From Actinomycetes bacterium (GTDB taxonomy: Bacteria; Actinomycetota; Acidimicrobiia; Acidimicrobiales; RAAP-2), in contig JAKAZC010000083.1 in NCBI GenBank assembly GCA_021826655.1, positions 1-9,797 on the forward strand: a DNA stretch of 9,797 nucleotides. The letters are read 5' to 3'. The first letter of the stretch is position 1. Every line of letters begins with the position of its first letter. The notes beneath the pieces are model-generated. The model saw only the letters and a program-made list of their open reading frames with translations, did not search any database and was not told the DNA's origin. Of this stretch, positions 2,833 through 9,797 are shown piece after piece. The position numbers and the translations under genes are program-made.

Positions 2833-2895
2833 GTGGGACAGGCTGAGTCGGACGACCCGTCCGTGTGTCGTGTGCGCAGGTGGACCGCACCGTGA
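2833..2895 (+). CDS. Possible leaderless 20-codon upstream ORF (leader peptide)
   Basis: GTG at 2833 lies six bases after the TACGAT box, where a leaderless transcript would begin. The frame codes for a 20-residue peptide beginning MGQAESDDPS and ending RRWTAP. Its TGA at 2893-2895 overlaps the GTG at 2892 proposed as the response-regulator start. Peptides this short arise easily by chance; placement at both ends is the only support. Confidence 0.3.
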   Translation: MGQAESDDPSVCRVRRWTAP

Positions 2896-3557
2896 CCGGG
2901 GACGGCGAGGGGATCCGGACGGTGATCGTCGACGACCACGAACTCCTCCGGAACGGGACCCGTGGGATCCTCGAGGGAGCGGAGGGATTCACCGTCGTGG
3001 GCGAGGCGGCGGACGCGGAGGCCGCATACCTGGTGGTGGGCGACGCCGCACCCGATCTGGTGATCGCCGACATCCGACTCCCGACCTCGAACGGCATCGA
3101 ACTCGCCGCCCGACTCGTCGACGACCATCCCGGTCTGGTCGTGGTGATCCTGAGTGCATACGACGACGAGCACTACGTGCGGGCAGCCATGGCCGCCGGG
3201 GTGGCTGCCTACCTGCTGAAGACCCTGCCCGGCCACGAGCTCGTGCGCGCGCTGCGCGTCGCCTGCTCGGGCGACGGTCCCCTCGCCCGACGGCCGCTCG
3301 GCTATGGCGAGAAGGACCGGGGGCGGACAGAGCCGGACGAGCGTCTGACCACCCGCGAGGCCGAGATCGTGCGCCTCGTCGCTCGCGGGATGTCGAACAA
3401 GGCGATCGCACACCACCTCGGCATCAGCTCGAGGACCGTCGAGGGTCACCTCAACCACGTGTTCGACAAGCTGGACGTCGCGTCCCGGACCGAGCTCGTC
3501 CATGTGGCACTGGCCGACAGCTTCGTCAGCCGTGACGTCTCACCCCCCTCCCGATGA
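2892..3557 (+). CDS. NarL/LuxR-family response regulator
   Basis: This 221-aa DNA-binding regulator would be phosphorylated by the kinase encoded next. The receiver domain spans ~9-125: acidic pair D14-D15 (VIVDDHELLRNG), phospho-acceptor D60 (DLVIADIRLP), S88 (VVVILSAYDDEHYVRAAM) and K110 (AAYLLK). A charged linker leads to a GerE/LuxR helix-turn-helix at ~155-215 (LTTREAEIVRLVARGMSNKA, then IAHHLGISSRTVEGHLNHVF). GTG at 2892 is chosen because AGGTGGA at 2878-2884 gives a well-spaced binding site and because the stop of the upstream 20-codon frame overlaps it. GTG at 2865 or 2880 would add 9 or 4 residues. Its last codon overlaps the kinase start as ATGA, so the two genes are translationally coupled. 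Targets are unknown; the neighbouring pilus genes are candidates by position only. Confidence 0.93.
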   Translation: MTGDGEGIRTVIVDDHELLRNGTRGILEGAEGFTVVGEAADAEAAYLVVGDAAPDLVIADIRLPTSNGIELAARLVDDHPGLVVVILSAYDDEHYVRAAMAAGVAAYLLKTLPGHELVRALRVACSGDGPLARRPLGYGEKDRGRTEPDERLTTREAEIVRLVARGMSNKAIAHHLGISSRTVEGHLNHVFDKLDVASRTELVHVALADSFVSRDVSPPSR

Positions 3558-5164
3558 GTGCCGACGGCCCGAGCCCGGGCGGTGACCGGTTCGACCGGCA
3601 CGGCATCTCGTCCGCCAGGACGCCGTGGACCGAGTCGGGGTTCTGGGTCCTCCAGCTGGTCGTCCTGGCGTTGGCCCTCGTTCGACTGGCGGTGACCGTC
3701 GGATTCGGACTGGATCCACGCAACCTGGTCCTGGAGGTGTCGACCGCCGCCCTCTTCGTGGTGCCCGTCGCCCTCGCTGCGCTGAACTACGGACTGTCGG
3801 GGGGCATGGCGACCGTCGTCTGGGTCGCGGTGCTCTGCATCCCGCGGATGGCCCAGGCGTCGGGTCGGGGGGGTGCTACCGCACTGTGGGCGGAGTTGGT
3901 ACAGGTGGCCGTACTCGGCGCCGTCGCCGTGCCGGTCGGGCGGCGGGTGACGGCCGAGTCGGTCTCCCGCCACCAGGCGGAACTCGCACGCTCGGCACGG
4001 CTGGAGGCGGAACTCCTCTACCAGGAGATGTTCGAGTCCAACCTGTCCCCGATCCTCATCGTCGACGCCGACGGCTTCGTGATCGGCTCCAACGCCTCCG
4101 CCGACCGGGCATTCCGCCCACCGCCGCACAGCCCGCCCGGTCCAGCTGGCGGGGACGGCGGGGGTCGTACCGCCGGAACCACGGTCGGGGCCACCGAGCC
4201 ACGTCGGTTGGTCGACGTGATCGGACCCGACGCCGCGTCCCTCGTGCTCACCCGGTTGATCGCGGTGGGCGACCCGACCACGTCCCCACAGGGCGGTCTC
4301 GCTCCGGTCGGCGTCCGGTCGGACGGACGACCGCACACGGGGGGAAGGGACACCGAGGACCGCGTCCCTCCGGTGCCCGTCGAGATCAGCGGCCGGATGA
4401 CACTCCTCCGGCCGACCGTGACCCGGGTCGGTCGGCACGGACGGGACCGGCGGATGCAGGTGATCTTCGAGGACGTCACCGCGGAGACGAGACGTCACGA
4501 TCTCATGGAGGCGTTCGCCGGCCAGGTCGTTCTGGGCCAGGAGGAGGAGCGGAGACACCTCGCCCAGGAATTGCACGACGGACCACTCCAGTCACTGATC
4601 CACCTGTGTCGTCAGATCGACACCCTGACGCCCGGTCGAGGGCCGCAGGGCCCCGCCCCGACACCCTTCGCCTCGATGCGTGCCACGGTGGAGGAGACGG
4701 TGGCCGAACTCCGCTCGATCGCCCGCGGCCTGCGACCGTCGGTGCTCGACGACCTCGGCCTGGTCGCTTCGATCAACCAGGTCCTGGTCGAGGCGACGGC
4801 CCGTCAGGGCTTCGCCAGCCGGTTCGACGTCACCGGTTCCGAGCGTCGGCTTCAACCGGCGATCGAGTTGGCGATCTTCCGGATCGCCCAGGAGGCCATC
4901 ACCAACATCGAGCACCATGCGATGGCGGAGCGGGTGACGCTGACACTGGGCTTCGGTGACTCCGGCCTGCGCTTACGGGTGGAGGACGACGGAGCGGGCT
5001 TCGACCCGAACCACCAGCGCCGTGGGGACGGCGGGAGGTCCCTCGGTCTCCCCGGCATGACCGAACGGGCCCGGCTCGTCGGCGCCCGACTGCGCGTGGA
5101 CTCCGCCCCCGGTCGGGGCACGACGGTCGAGACCTGGCTACCGGGGGGGCAGGCCGACGGGTGA
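3554..5164 (+). CDS. Membrane sensor histidine kinase, HisKA_3 / NarL-partner type
   Basis: This is a 536-aa kinase partner of the preceding response regulator. The N-terminal region carries about four hydrophobic segments (~30-52, 60-78, 82-100, 110-128), followed by a helical stretch rich in Ala/Glu/Arg (~134-157). A PAS-like domain follows from ~155 (MFESNLSPILIVDADGFVIG) to ~310 (MQVIFEDVTAETRRHD). It is interrupted at ~187-275 by a Pro/Gly/Thr/Arg-rich stretch. The dimerisation domain has the phospho-accepting H341 in EEERRHLAQELHDGPLQSL. The ATPase domain has an N box around N451 (AQEAITNIEHHAMA), G1 DDGAGFD (478-484) and G2 GLPGM (498-502). The sensor lacks a recognisable extracellular ligand domain, so the signal is unknown. 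ATG at 3554 overlaps the regulator stop (ATGA). No transcription terminator separates the pair. Confidence 0.93.
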   Translation: MSADGPSPGGDRFDRHGISSARTPWTESGFWVLQLVVLALALVRLAVTVGFGLDPRNLVLEVSTAALFVVPVALAALNYGLSGGMATVVWVAVLCIPRMAQASGRGGATALWAELVQVAVLGAVAVPVGRRVTAESVSRHQAELARSARLEAELLYQEMFESNLSPILIVDADGFVIGSNASADRAFRPPPHSPPGPAGGDGGGRTAGTTVGATEPRRLVDVIGPDAASLVLTRLIAVGDPTTSPQGGLAPVGVRSDGRPHTGGRDTEDRVPPVPVEISGRMTLLRPTVTRVGRHGRDRRMQVIFEDVTAETRRHDLMEAFAGQVVLGQEEERRHLAQELHDGPLQSLIHLCRQIDTLTPGRGPQGPAPTPFASMRATVEETVAELRSIARGLRPSVLDDLGLVASINQVLVEATARQGFASRFDVTGSERRLQPAIELAIFRIAQEAITNIEHHAMAERVTLTLGFGDSGLRLRVEDDGAGFDPNHQRRGDGGRSLGLPGMTERARLVGARLRVDSAPGRGTTVETWLPGGQADG

Positions 5165-5283
5165 GCCCGTCGACGGCCGCTACACCTGTTTCCGGCCGAC
5201 AGCGCACGCACAGGACACCGGCTCCACCTGCAACTGTCACCCAACCGACATGTAATTGCGCTGGGCATCCAGCGAGAGCGTGG

Positions 5284-5289
5284 GATACT
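5284..5289 (+). promoter_or_regulatory. Possible -10 box (GATACT) for the 98-aa gene
   Basis: GATACT matches four of six positions of TATAAT and lies six bases before the GTG at 5296, the spacing expected for a leaderless transcript. No convincing -35 at normal distance; TTGCGC at 5256-5261 would need a 22-nt spacer. Confidence 0.3.
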
Positions 5290-5295
5290 GCCTTC

Positions 5296-5592
5296 GTGGA
5301 AGAAATCGTCATCGAGTCCTGCCACAGCACCTGGATCATCGACCGTGCCAACTCCCGGTTCCGACGTGTCGTCAAGTCGGCGCACGGCACCGGCGCCCCC
5401 GCGTCCACCGAATGGCAACCCTGTTACGGCGTGGAGATCGACCCGCTCTCGGAGTCCTTCGTGGTGCTGTTGAATCGCGAGGGGACACGGCTGCTTCGGA
5501 GCTGGCGCCACGTGGAGCACTGCTCCCAGTGCGGTGGCGAGGCCACGTCCGAGCTGTCGCTCCGAGACCTGCGCTCCGCCGTCCGGAACTGA
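5296..5592 (+). CDS. Conserved-looking hypothetical protein, 98 aa
   Basis: I do not recognise this protein. It begins MEEIVIESCHSTWIIDRANS and is soluble-looking, with no signal peptide or membrane helix. It has cysteines at 9, 43, 76 and 79; the last two form CSQCG, a possible half zinc knuckle. The middle (CYGVEIDPLSESFVVLLN, ~43-60) looks like beta strands; a basic segment TRLLRSWRHVEH follows. The GTG start is favoured because a -10-like box lies six bases upstream and because the frame before it does not look coding (low-complexity Thr/Pro). G/C at third positions is as high as in the neighbours, so it is probably a genuine resident gene. It lies alone between the kinase and the convergent moaC. 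Confidence 0.7.
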   Translation: MEEIVIESCHSTWIIDRANSRFRRVVKSAHGTGAPASTEWQPCYGVEIDPLSESFVVLLNREGTRLLRSWRHVEHCSQCGGEATSELSLRDLRSAVRN

Positions 5593-5613
5593 GGCGCCGG
5601 TCTCGTTCCCGAA

Positions 5614-5644
5614 GACGGGCGTGGTTGGGTCGCGCCCGCCCGTC
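5614..5644. terminator. Possible terminator hairpin between convergent genes
   Basis: GACGGGCG (5614-5621) and CGCCCGTC (5637-5644) form a perfect 8-bp stem with a 15-nt loop, 22 bases after the stop of the 98-aa gene. No T tract follows. Confidence 0.4.
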
Positions 5645-5665
5645 GCGTCCAGGTGGGCGGCGAGC

Positions 5666-5696
5666 GGTGCAGCGCCCGTCGCTTGCGGGCCGCACC
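5666..5696. terminator. Second possible terminator hairpin, close to the end of moaC
   Basis: GGTGC/GCACC (5666-5670 with 5692-5696) and GCCCG/CGGGC (5674-5678 with 5686-5690) stack around an asymmetric internal loop, with a 7-nt apical loop. It ends six bases beyond the moaC stop, as expected for termination of that gene. No T tract follows. Confidence 0.35.
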
Positions 5697-5701
5697 CTGG
5701 C

Positions 5702-6187
5702 TCAGACGGACCGCCCCCGCTTCCACTGGCCGGAACTCCCCCCGGTCTTCTCCCACAGCATCAGCTGTCCGATGCTCATGGTCCGGTCCGCCGTCTTGCA
5801 CATGTCGTAGACGGTGAGTGCCGCGATGGCGCAGGCCGTCATCGCCTCCATCTCGACCCCGGTCCGGTCGATCGCTTCGACCTTCGCCTCGACCTCGACG
5901 TAGTCGTCGCCGATGGTGAAGTCGACCTGCACCGAGCCGACCAGCAGCGGGTGGCACATGGGGACGAGCTCGGCGGTCCGCTTCGCCGCCTGGATGCCGG
6001 CCACCCTGGCCGCAGCCAGGACGTCCCCCTTTGTGATCGCGTTGTTGGCCACCTGGGCCGTCGTCTCGGGCTTCATGGCCACCCGACACCGGGCCAACGC
6101 CTTGCGCAGCGTGGCCTCCTTCGGGGACACGTCTGCCATCCGGTTCCCGCCGAACGGGTCCAGGTGGTGCAAGCTCCGGTCCGTCAC
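5702..6187 (-). CDS. moaC: Cyclic pyranopterin monophosphate synthase MoaC
   Basis: MoaC converts the MoaA product, 3',8-cyclo-7,8-dihydro-GTP, to cyclic pyranopterin monophosphate, an early step of molybdenum cofactor synthesis in the cytoplasm. The 161-aa length is normal. Family motifs are intact: HLDPFGGNRMADVSPKEATL near the N terminus, KGDVLAAARVAGIQAAKRT (K53, equivalent to the catalytic K51 of E. coli), CHPL (78-81), DRTGVEMEAMTA (107-118), and VYDMCKTADR with D128 and K131 at the same numbers as in E. coli. The end reads LWEKTGGSSGQW. GTG at 6187 is supported by GGGAG six bases upstream (plus-strand 6194-6198) and by the family's usual distance to the HLD motif. No other Mo-cofactor gene is in the window. 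The gene is divergent from fmdB. Confidence 0.96.
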   Translation of the reverse strand: MTDRSLHHLDPFGGNRMADVSPKEATLRKALARCRVAMKPETTAQVANNAITKGDVLAAARVAGIQAAKRTAELVPMCHPLLVGSVQVDFTIGDDYVEVEAKVEAIDRTGVEMEAMTACAIAALTVYDMCKTADRTMSIGQLMLWEKTGGSSGQWKRGRSV

Positions 6188-6214
6188 AGTCCACTCCCGT
6201 CGTCCACTGGCGAC

Positions 6215-6220
6215 AGTCTA
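6215..6220 (-). promoter_or_regulatory. -10 box (TAGACT) for moaC
   Basis: On the minus strand TAGACT fits TANNNT and lies 27 nt upstream of the moaC GTG, leaving room for the ribosome binding site. No clear -35 hexamer. Confidence 0.35.
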
Positions 6221-6262
6221 CGGGAGCGCACCGTCGACGGCCGGTTCTGGCACTCGTGTGGC

Positions 6263-6268
6263 TAGACT
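6263..6268 (+). promoter_or_regulatory. -10 box (TAGACT) for fmdB
   Basis: TAGACT lies 39 nt upstream of the fmdB GTG. A ribosome binding site GGAAGGA at 6293-6299, eight bases before the start, follows. No clear -35 hexamer. The same hexamer serves the divergent moaC side. Confidence 0.35.
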
Positions 6269-6307
6269 GCCAGACCAACGCCGCCTCGAACCGGAAGGAA
6301 CACGCGC

Positions 6308-6763
6308 GTGCCCACCTACGAATACCGCTGCGACCACTGTGCGACGAACTTCGACGTCGTCCAGTCGTTCCAGGACGACCCGCTGACCGAGTGCCCGACC
6401 TGCGGGAGTCCGGTCCGCAAGGTCTTCGGCAGCGTCGGGATCGTGTTCAAGGGGAGCGGGTTCTACAAGACGGACAGTCGGCCGGGGAACGGGTCCTCGT
6501 CCCGACCCGGGGAGTCGACGGCCGCCGCCGCGGCCGGAGACGCGGCCCCGGGTGGTTCCGGCCCGACCACCGAGTCGTCCACGTCCGACTCGTCCACGTC
6601 CGACTCGTCCGACTCGTCCGACTCGAAGGGGGGCGTGTCTCCCGACAAGAACACGTCGGGAGGGACGCCGTCAGACAAGGCGGCGCCGTCGACCAAGGTG
6701 CCGTCCGGCTCCACGTCGTCCTCGGGGGGATCCGGCTCGGGGAGTTCCACCGCGCCCGCCTGA
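6308..6763 (+). CDS. fmdB: FmdB-family zinc-ribbon protein with a Ser/Asp-rich repeat tail
   Basis: This 151-aa protein starts with the classic FmdB zinc ribbon: MPTYEYRCDHC (C8, C11), then TECPTCGSPVRKVFGSVGIV (C29, C32) and FKGSGFYKTD (48-56). The family is widespread and named after a putative regulator of formamidase; its molecular function is not established. After residue ~57 the sequence becomes a low-complexity tail of Ser, Gly, Thr, Pro and Asp, including STSDSSTSDSSDSSDS, ending STAPA. Family members often carry such a disordered tail of variable length. The GTG start is supported by GGAAGGA at 6293-6299. It has its own promoter-like box and is followed by a strong hairpin, so it is probably monocistronic despite standing beside pilT. 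Confidence 0.9.
   Translation: MPTYEYRCDHCATNFDVVQSFQDDPLTECPTCGSPVRKVFGSVGIVFKGSGFYKTDSRPGNGSSSRPGESTAAAAAGDAAPGGSGPTTESSTSDSSTSDSSDSSDSKGGVSPDKNTSGGTPSDKAAPSTKVPSGSTSSSGGSGSGSSTAPA
6575..6625 (+). repeat. Short tandem repeats inside fmdB
   Basis: Two perfect 15-bp units TCGTCCACGTCCGAC (6575-6589, 6590-6604) run directly into two perfect 9-bp units TCGTCCGAC (6605-6613, 6614-6622) and a partial copy. All units are multiples of three, so copy-number change keeps the fmdB frame. Confidence 0.9.
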
Positions 6764-8246: not shown

Positions 8247-9590
8247 GTGGCACGCCTGATCGTCGGACTGGACATCGGAACCAGCGCCGTCCGGGCCGCA
8301 GAGCTCGACGTCTCCAAGCACACACCGGTCCTCATGACCTACGGCCAGGTGGGTCTCCCGCCCGGCTCACTCGAGGACGGCGAGATCCGCGACGCGTCCT
8401 CGGTCGCCAAGGCGATCGAGAAGCTCTGGAAGAACGGGCAGTTCAGCGGCTCGTCGGTCATCGTGGGTATCGCCGGACTGCGGGCGATCACCCGCGAGGT
8501 CGACCTTCCCTACGTGCCCGACGACGAGGTGGAGAGCGCCGTCCGCTTCCAGTCCGAAGAGGTCGTCCCCTTCCCCCCGGACCAGACGATCCTGTCCTCC
8601 CAGGTGCTGGCCGACTACACCAACGACGAGGGCGCCAAGATGCGGCGCGTGCTCATCGCCGCGGCCCACGTCGACCTGGTGAACGGAGTGATCGGCGCCG
8701 TCGAACAGGCGGGCCTCACGGTGGACGCGGTGGACCTCATCTCCTCGGCACTGGTGCGTTCGATCGGCAGCCACGAGGCCTCGGACCGTCCGGAGGCGAT
8801 CGTCTCGGTGGGGGCCGGGCTCACGGTGGTGGTCGTCCACCAGTCCGGCCGGCCCCAGTTCGTCCGCACCATCGGGTCCGGCGGCAACGCCACCACCGCC
8901 GCCATCGCCGCCTCCCTGGACATGCCCATCGTCGACGCCGAGGCCCTCAAGTACCGGTTCGGCGCGGACTCGACACAGATCCAGGCCGGCGAGCGGGTCG
9001 CCCAGGCGAGCATGCGCGACCTGGTCGACGAGATCCGGAATTCGATCCAGTACTTCGCATCGCTGCCGGACCGGCTCCCCGTGTCGCAGATCCTCGTGAC
9101 CGGCGGCGGCTCCGAGCTCCCCGGCTTCGTCCCCATGCTCGAGTCCCAGGTCCACCTCCCCGTGCGGACCGTGTCGCCACTCGACCGCGTGGACGTCTCG
9201 AAGCTCGACCTCACACCCGAGCAGTCGACCGCCGTCGCTCCGGTCCTGGCCTCACCCATCGGCCTGGCGCTCCCCGAGCCCGACAAGGCGGTCAAGAAGT
9301 TCAACCTGCTCCCGGCCGAGGTGGCGGAGAAGTCCCGGATGCGCCGGATCCAGCAGCGCACGGTCGTCGGCTCGGTCGCCGTGATCGTCCTCCTCCTCCT
9401 CTTCGGGGGTTGGAAGTTCCTCCAGGTGCGCAGCGAACAGAACAAGGTCGGCGACCTCCAGGCCAGCATCGCCTCGCTGAACGCCCAGGTCCCCAAGTAC
9501 GACCTGGTGGTGGCGGCCCACGACGCCTACACGGCCGGGCTCAGCCGGCGGGCGTCGGTGATCAACTCCGCCATCGACTGGCCGCTGGTC
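8247..9590 (+). CDS. pilM: PilM-PilN fusion, type IV pilus alignment protein, truncated by a chimeric junction
   Basis: PilM is an actin-like cytoplasmic protein that binds the N-terminal tail of inner-membrane PilN, linking the pilus motor to the envelope. Residues 1-~340 are PilM: phosphate-1 loop [15 protein letters not shown] (6-20), [18 protein letters not shown] (73-90), [15 protein letters not shown] (95-109), [11 protein letters not shown] (188-198), and the adenosine loop [12 protein letters not shown] (282-293). Then comes [13 protein letters not shown] (350-362), matching the INLLP motif at the start of PilN, a transmembrane helix [20 protein letters not shown] (373-392) and a helical region with [12 protein letters not shown] (437-448), typical of early PilN. 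Authentic sequence stops near 9590. The frame then reads 28 meaningless codons antisense to tolB and ends at 9674. GTG at 8247 has GGAG at 8236-8239. Confidence 0.9.
9578..9590. other. Chimeric junction (13-bp shared stretch)
   Basis: CTGGCCGCTGGTC encodes WPLV of PilN on the plus strand and the end of LTSGQ of TolB on the minus strand. Left of it only the PilN reading makes sense; right of it only TolB does. Confidence 0.75.
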
Positions 9591-9797
9591 AGGAATCGGT
9601 GGTTGGCCCCGTCCGAATCCATGATCGCAAGGCGCTTCATGCGATGGTCCTTGGGACCGGTCTCGGCGATGTAGGCGATCTTCGAATCGAAGAACGGGCT
9701 TTCCCCCGACAGACGCGAATAGACCATGTCCGCGCACTTGTGCGCCGCGCGGCGCCAGTCCGAAGGCGGAACCTGCCAGCCGCCCTTCACCAGCTGC
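9578..9797 (-). CDS. tolB: TolB fragment of alphaproteobacterial type (foreign to the rest of the window)
   Basis: TolB is a periplasmic beta-propeller protein of the Tol-Pal system, which holds the outer membrane of Gram-negative cells. The minus-strand frame is open from the right edge and reads, in order, [60 protein letters not shown] and [13 protein letters not shown]. This is the end of the N-terminal TolB domain and the start of the propeller. The style ([21 protein letters not shown]) is alphaproteobacterial and closest in my memory to Sphingomonadales. Codons such as GAT, TAT, CGT and CTT appear more often than in the actinobacterial genes. Homology stops at ~9578, where the propeller should continue with LTPRFSP-like sequence but PilN DNA begins. 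Both ends are incomplete. Actinomycetota lack a Tol-Pal system, so this is not a resident gene. Confidence 0.88.

Follow-up and report, generated by a model that had tools for sequence, protein, structure and literature searches.

A contig from an acidimicrobial genome assembly with a right end that is very probably an artificial chimera of pilMN and Novosphingobium-type tolB

Introduction

Chimeric joins have been described both for amplified DNA and for assembled contigs. The parts of Lasken and Stockwell (2007; PMC1855051) drawn on here attribute over 70% of the junctions formed during multiple displacement amplification (MDA) to re-priming at complementary stretches of 2-21 nucleotides, mostly within one molecule; where the joined segments lay more than 10 kb from each other, complementary bases were present in 34.8% (inverted) and 27.6% (direct) of cases. 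With regard to assembly, the portions of PMC3100316 used here report that simulated metagenome assemblies contain contigs chimeric between species; many of these, to an extent that varied with the assembler, stayed within a genus, species or family, and sequence similarity was named as the main cause.

The DNA considered here (the window) is a stretch of 9,797 nucleotides, contig JAKAZC010000083.1 of assembly GCA_021826655.1, which is assigned to an actinomycetote of the order Acidimicrobiales. Its right end resembles MDA chimeric reads in that two segments are joined at a short shared stretch, but the chimeras in the cited parts of PMC1855051 came from one E. coli genome and mostly joined segments within 10 kb, whereas the window joins two phyla. 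It likewise resembles assembler chimeras in carrying the DNA of two species on one contig; those in the cited parts of PMC3100316, however, lay mostly at the level of genus, species or family, or at deeper ranks depending on the assembler, while the window brings together two phyla over about 20 shared bases.

The two genes that meet at this join have close relatives in intact form. The PilMN proteins of Acidimicrobiales (P0001 and P0002) are 98% and 92% identical to the window copy over the query, which lacks their last 129 and 117 residues, respectively. The TolB of Novosphingobium (TIGR02800; P0242) shares 75 of 76 residues with the fragment in the window, which differs from it in being internal and cut at both ends. 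A reading made from the letters of the window (hereafter the sequence-only reading) had proposed that the contig end is a chimera of these two genes, and the analysis described below follows up that proposal. The coordinates of the features are collected in Table 1.

Table 1. Features at the right end of the window
Feature	Coordinates	Strand	Evidence
Acidimicrobial pilMN (fused PilM-PilN type), 5′ part, cut at the join	8247..9568	+	PilM_2 and TIGR01175 above cut-off; P0001 98% identical; pilT-pilMN in 6/6 MAG loci
pilMN stretch diverging from the closest relative, possibly another strain's template	9519..9568	+	4/9 differences from P0001 (residues 2-442) fall in 425-442
20 bases that either gene could supply (microhomology or overlap)	9569..9588		A at 9573 is the base needed for the TolB Met codon
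Internal fragment of a Novosphingobium-type tolB, cut at the join and at the window edge	9569..9797	-	TIGR02800 positions 125-191 of 418; 76/76 aa to P0241, 75/76 to P0242

Results

The acidimicrobial pilMN gene and its relatives

The plus-strand frame from 8247 stays open to 9674. Up to 9588/9590 it belongs to the PilM family, scoring 172.8 bits on TIGR01175 (cut-off 133), and the Pfam PilM_2 match of the frame reaches 143.9 bits (cut-off 27). The tail is called PilN here, a name taken over from the sequence-only reading; the profile searches matched no PilN family. In the 120 listed homologues PilM and the PilN-like tail form a single protein of 506-638 aa, and Pfam searches of P0001 and P0002 picked out the PilM portion together with related actin-like families, and no PilN family.

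The homologue search for PilMN returned 971 homologues among 7993 scored candidates, of which 120 were listed. The best of those listed, P0001, covers 100% of the 448 aa of the query, and three of the 120 carry Acidimicrobiales in their source name. P0001 has 576 aa in all and goes on with DWPLALNSLIAITP. All 120 listed relatives have 94-132 residues from column 449 onwards, and it is at 9588-9590 that the window departs from them. Over residues 449-460 the residue of the window occurs in none of the 120 at seven positions, including the Arg at 449, and in one of them at another; its residues 450, 454, 455 and 456 are found in 36, 39, 120 and 9 of the listed relatives, respectively.

A genome scan with pilMN located six further loci, 75-79% identical and all in metagenome-assembled genomes (MAGs) titled Acidimicrobiaceae or Acidimicrobiales. 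The pilMN frame goes on beyond the join position in every one of them. In five it ends at 560-575 aa and is followed by an open frame of 257-271 aa, and in the sixth (L006) it runs off the contig. The frame after pilMN is PilO in both loci tested (L005 and L008; Pfam scores of 25.9 and 24.6 against a 22-bit cut-off), and pilT lies upstream of pilMN in all six. The continuation of the gene in the listed relatives and in the six loci thus agrees with the sequence-only reading, which had considered pilMN good to about 9590 and nonsense thereafter.

The tolB fragment

On the opposite strand, a frame from 9796 matches TIGR02800 with E values of 7.3e-18 (as a 73-aa fragment) and 3.3e-18 (as a 76-aa fragment). 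The 76-aa version scores 65.8 bits over 67 of the 418 profile positions (125-191), below the 343-bit cut-off for a whole TolB protein, which is out of reach for so short a fragment. Over the section present it is identical to P0241 at 76 of 76 residues and to P0242 at 75 of 76, and 75 of 76 residues are also identical in P0253; P0241 and P0242 are themselves full-length TolB proteins, whose scores of 395.4 and 392.2 bits exceed the cut-off. The feature is a fragment of a TolB gene and not a TolB. Since identity to P0241 holds throughout the 76 residues, and to P0242 at all but one, the TolB sequence extends to 9569, nine bases further than the end at 9578 that the sequence-only reading had given to what it correctly recognised as an internal TolB fragment. 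At the first residue after the identity ends, 119 of the 120 listed TolB relatives have Leu and one has Met; the window has Glu, which occurs there in none of the 120.

The 73-aa fragment had no match in Pfam and matched TolB chains in the PDB weakly (best E 0.0014), and the identification is therefore carried by NCBIfam and the direct homologues. The source of P0242 is named as Novosphingobium sp. fls2-241-R2A-195, and the other named TolB matches are to Novosphingobium species (85-95%) and Altererythrobacter (88%). The taxonomic name of the TolB donor rests on these, P0241 and several others being listed with no source name, and they narrow the alphaproteobacterial origin suggested earlier to a Novosphingobium type. 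The TolB sequences found in a plasmid collection, in six records, were all more distant; the best was 67.1% identical in amino acids and 72.9% in DNA (Sphingomonas parapaucimobilis), and a search with that protein listed Sphingomonas-type proteins.

TolB was also sought among relatives of the pilMN host. None of the six genomes with pilMN loci had a TIGR02800 match over the cut-off (two had weaker matches), nor did any of the 395 genomes in a sample of the L008 genome's class, which we take to be Acidimicrobiia; two of 14 control genomes did. Matches below the cut-off were found in 244 of the 395 class genomes, and those listed span profile positions 150-418. The 76-aa fragment matched none of the 395 class genomes and none of 396 sampled from the phylum, two samples that share some genomes, and its 73-aa version matched none of the six acidimicrobial genomes of the loci. 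As a positive control for the fragment search, the 73-aa version matched a Sphingomonas plasmid with an E value of 1.2e-33. For the relatives sampled, these counts bear out the view that TolB is foreign to the pilMN host.

The join

The two frames face each other tail-to-tail and are broken at one shared stretch, as the sequence-only reading had it; its figure of 13 bp for that stretch was too small. The window is compatible with pilMN to 9588 and with TolB down to 9569, so that either gene could supply the 20 bases between, and the shared stretch would grow to 22 bp (to 9590) if native codon 448 encodes Val, as it does in 15 of the 120 listed PilMN relatives. The codon that holds position 9573 specifies Val in 95 and Ile in 25 of these relatives, and the A in the window is the base of the TolB Met codon. 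With Val native at this codon, the exact shared word would be 9574-9588, that is 15 bases (17 with Val at 448), and the switch would lie at or left of 9573; with Ile native, the word would be 20-22 bases long. Lengths of about 20 bp, or about 15 if 9573 is not native, fall within the 2-21 nt of complementary sequence given for MDA junctions in the cited parts of PMC1855051. The 20-base word occurs once in the window, even with up to three mismatches allowed, and a 37-base pattern spanning the join had no exact match in viral contigs.

Immediately left of the join, pilMN is less similar to its closest relative than elsewhere. Differences from P0001 number five in residues 2-424 and four in residues 425-442, a comparison that leaves out position 1 (a GTG start read as Val) and the positions from 443 (permutation) or from 448 on. 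A floating-cut permutation test of this clustering gave p of about 0.002; a fixed-cut hypergeometric value of 5e-5, in which residue 443 was also counted, is the less fair of the two. The best match to the 18-residue piece among the 120 listed relatives is P0107, with 16 of 18 residues and only 74.2% identity over the rest, while P0001 has 14 of 18 and 98.8% over the rest. This pattern suggests that some 50 bases just left of the join may derive from another strain, in which case the last ~280 bases of the contig could be one foreign read or path.

A step in GC content at the join, which the sequence-only reading had proposed to look for, is present and weak (0.638 after 9590 against 0.701 before), and 3.6% of the 207-bp stretches left of the join reach equally low values. 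Being only mild, the step was dropped as proof of the join. A search of Rfam at the gathering threshold found no RNA family anywhere in the window, including at the join.

Discussion

Origin of the join

Taxonomy compared separately for the two sides gives Acidimicrobiales to the left and Novosphingobium to the right, that is, two origins on either side of one breakpoint. Within the samples covered, the join is absent from the relatives of both parents: the tolB fragment is found in none of the 395 class or 396 phylum genomes, and the join is lacking in all six pilMN loci, all 120 listed PilMN relatives and all 120 listed TolB relatives. The presence of two phyla at high identity, a shared cut in mid-frame, relatives that continue normally and the absence of TolB from sampled relatives of the host together argue that the right end is, with high probability, an artificial inter-species chimera formed at a contig end, as the sequence-only reading had maintained. 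The join is almost certainly an artefact of sequencing or assembly and not biology.

The parents would be an uncultured Acidimicrobiales bacterium, the source of pilMN, and a Novosphingobium-like bacterium, the source of tolB, both present in one mixed sample or one of them as a contaminant of it. The join would have arisen in vitro or in silico at the roughly 20 bases common to both genes (9569-9588). In the first case a 3′ end would have re-primed on foreign DNA while the sample was amplified or the library prepared; in the second an assembler would have passed through the shared short word. The last 210-280 bases may be a single read or fragment. A template switch in the molecule and a step by the assembler both fit, and our confidence in an artificial origin divides about evenly between them; the overlap joining and amplification rearrangement offered by the sequence-only reading are thus both possible.

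For a chimeric molecule we see about an even chance. Here a 3′ end, either displaced or left incomplete, would have annealed to the shared stretch and primed synthesis along the DNA of the other organism (by MDA, library PCR or the like), and the contig end would be one such read or fragment. Base 9573 is the one that TolB requires, and the tail of 209-229 bases past the join would be the size of a read; the route would call for an amplified sample. According to the cited parts of PMC1855051, MDA junctions do carry complementary stretches of 2-21 nt; the chimeras described there are, however, mostly intramolecular, and judged by the proportions with complementary bases beyond 10 kb a join between species at ~20 bp of homology would be an atypical MDA product. 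The chance that the assembler made the join, through a small-k de Bruijn or overlap step that walked across a word common to the two genomes, is put a little short of even. At 20-22 bases, the stretch that either gene could supply is near the smallest word sizes used by assemblers, and the divergence left of the join would fit a different path through the graph. With a native G (Val) at 9573, however, the longest exact shared word shrinks to about 15-17 bases, which is short for the usual assembler k. Interspecies chimeric contigs are on record in PMC3100316, but in the parts cited here they often unite members of one genus, species or family, with sequence similarity as the main cause.

Readings in which the join or the fragment is genuine fare far worse. 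Horizontal transfer or illegitimate recombination would have carried a piece of Novosphingobium tolB into an acidimicrobial pilMN at ~20 bp of shared sequence, and what speaks for such an event is the sequence itself and nothing else. Both genes are broken, the fragment keeps 99-100% amino-acid identity to full-length TolB, the join, about 210 bases short of the window edge, coincides with the ~20 bp common to the two genes, and no copy of the fragment was found in the 395 class and 396 phylum genomes; we regard genuine transfer as highly improbable. If true, it would represent a cross-phylum, microhomology-guided transfer caught in progress. The fragment could alternatively belong to a native acidimicrobial propeller gene instead of a proteobacterial TolB, a notion to which the sub-cut-off TIGR02800 matches in 244 class genomes lend some colour. 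With none of the 395 class genomes reaching the cut-off, and the fragment itself unmatched in them yet 75/76 identical to a Novosphingobium TolB, this candidate was rejected as unsupported, with next to no chance of being correct.

Consequences for use of the contig

On the preferred interpretation of the right end as an artificial chimera, positions 9569-9797 should be trimmed (or, more cautiously, everything from about 9519), as they are unfit for gene calls, for binning or for any claim of a Tol-Pal system in this actinomycetote. The join is useful as a curation flag, and illustrates that some 20 shared bases can suffice for DNA of two phyla to become linked at the end of a contig.

The remainder of the window

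For the rest, the window carries an ordinary pilus cluster of acidimicrobial type. Between a prepilin-peptidase-like ORF, which carries an A24_N domain, and pilT, positions 2865-6763 hold genes for a response regulator, a histidine kinase, moaC (minus strand) and an FmdB-type zinc-ribbon protein, and matches to these neighbours occur in three of the MAG loci (L004, L005 and L008). Both edges of the window cut genes, tolB at the right and a minus-strand pilB frame at the left. The latter (1-1563) corresponds to the first half of PilB (TIGR02538, 215.6 bits, below the cut-off of 675.65 bits) and exits through the left edge.
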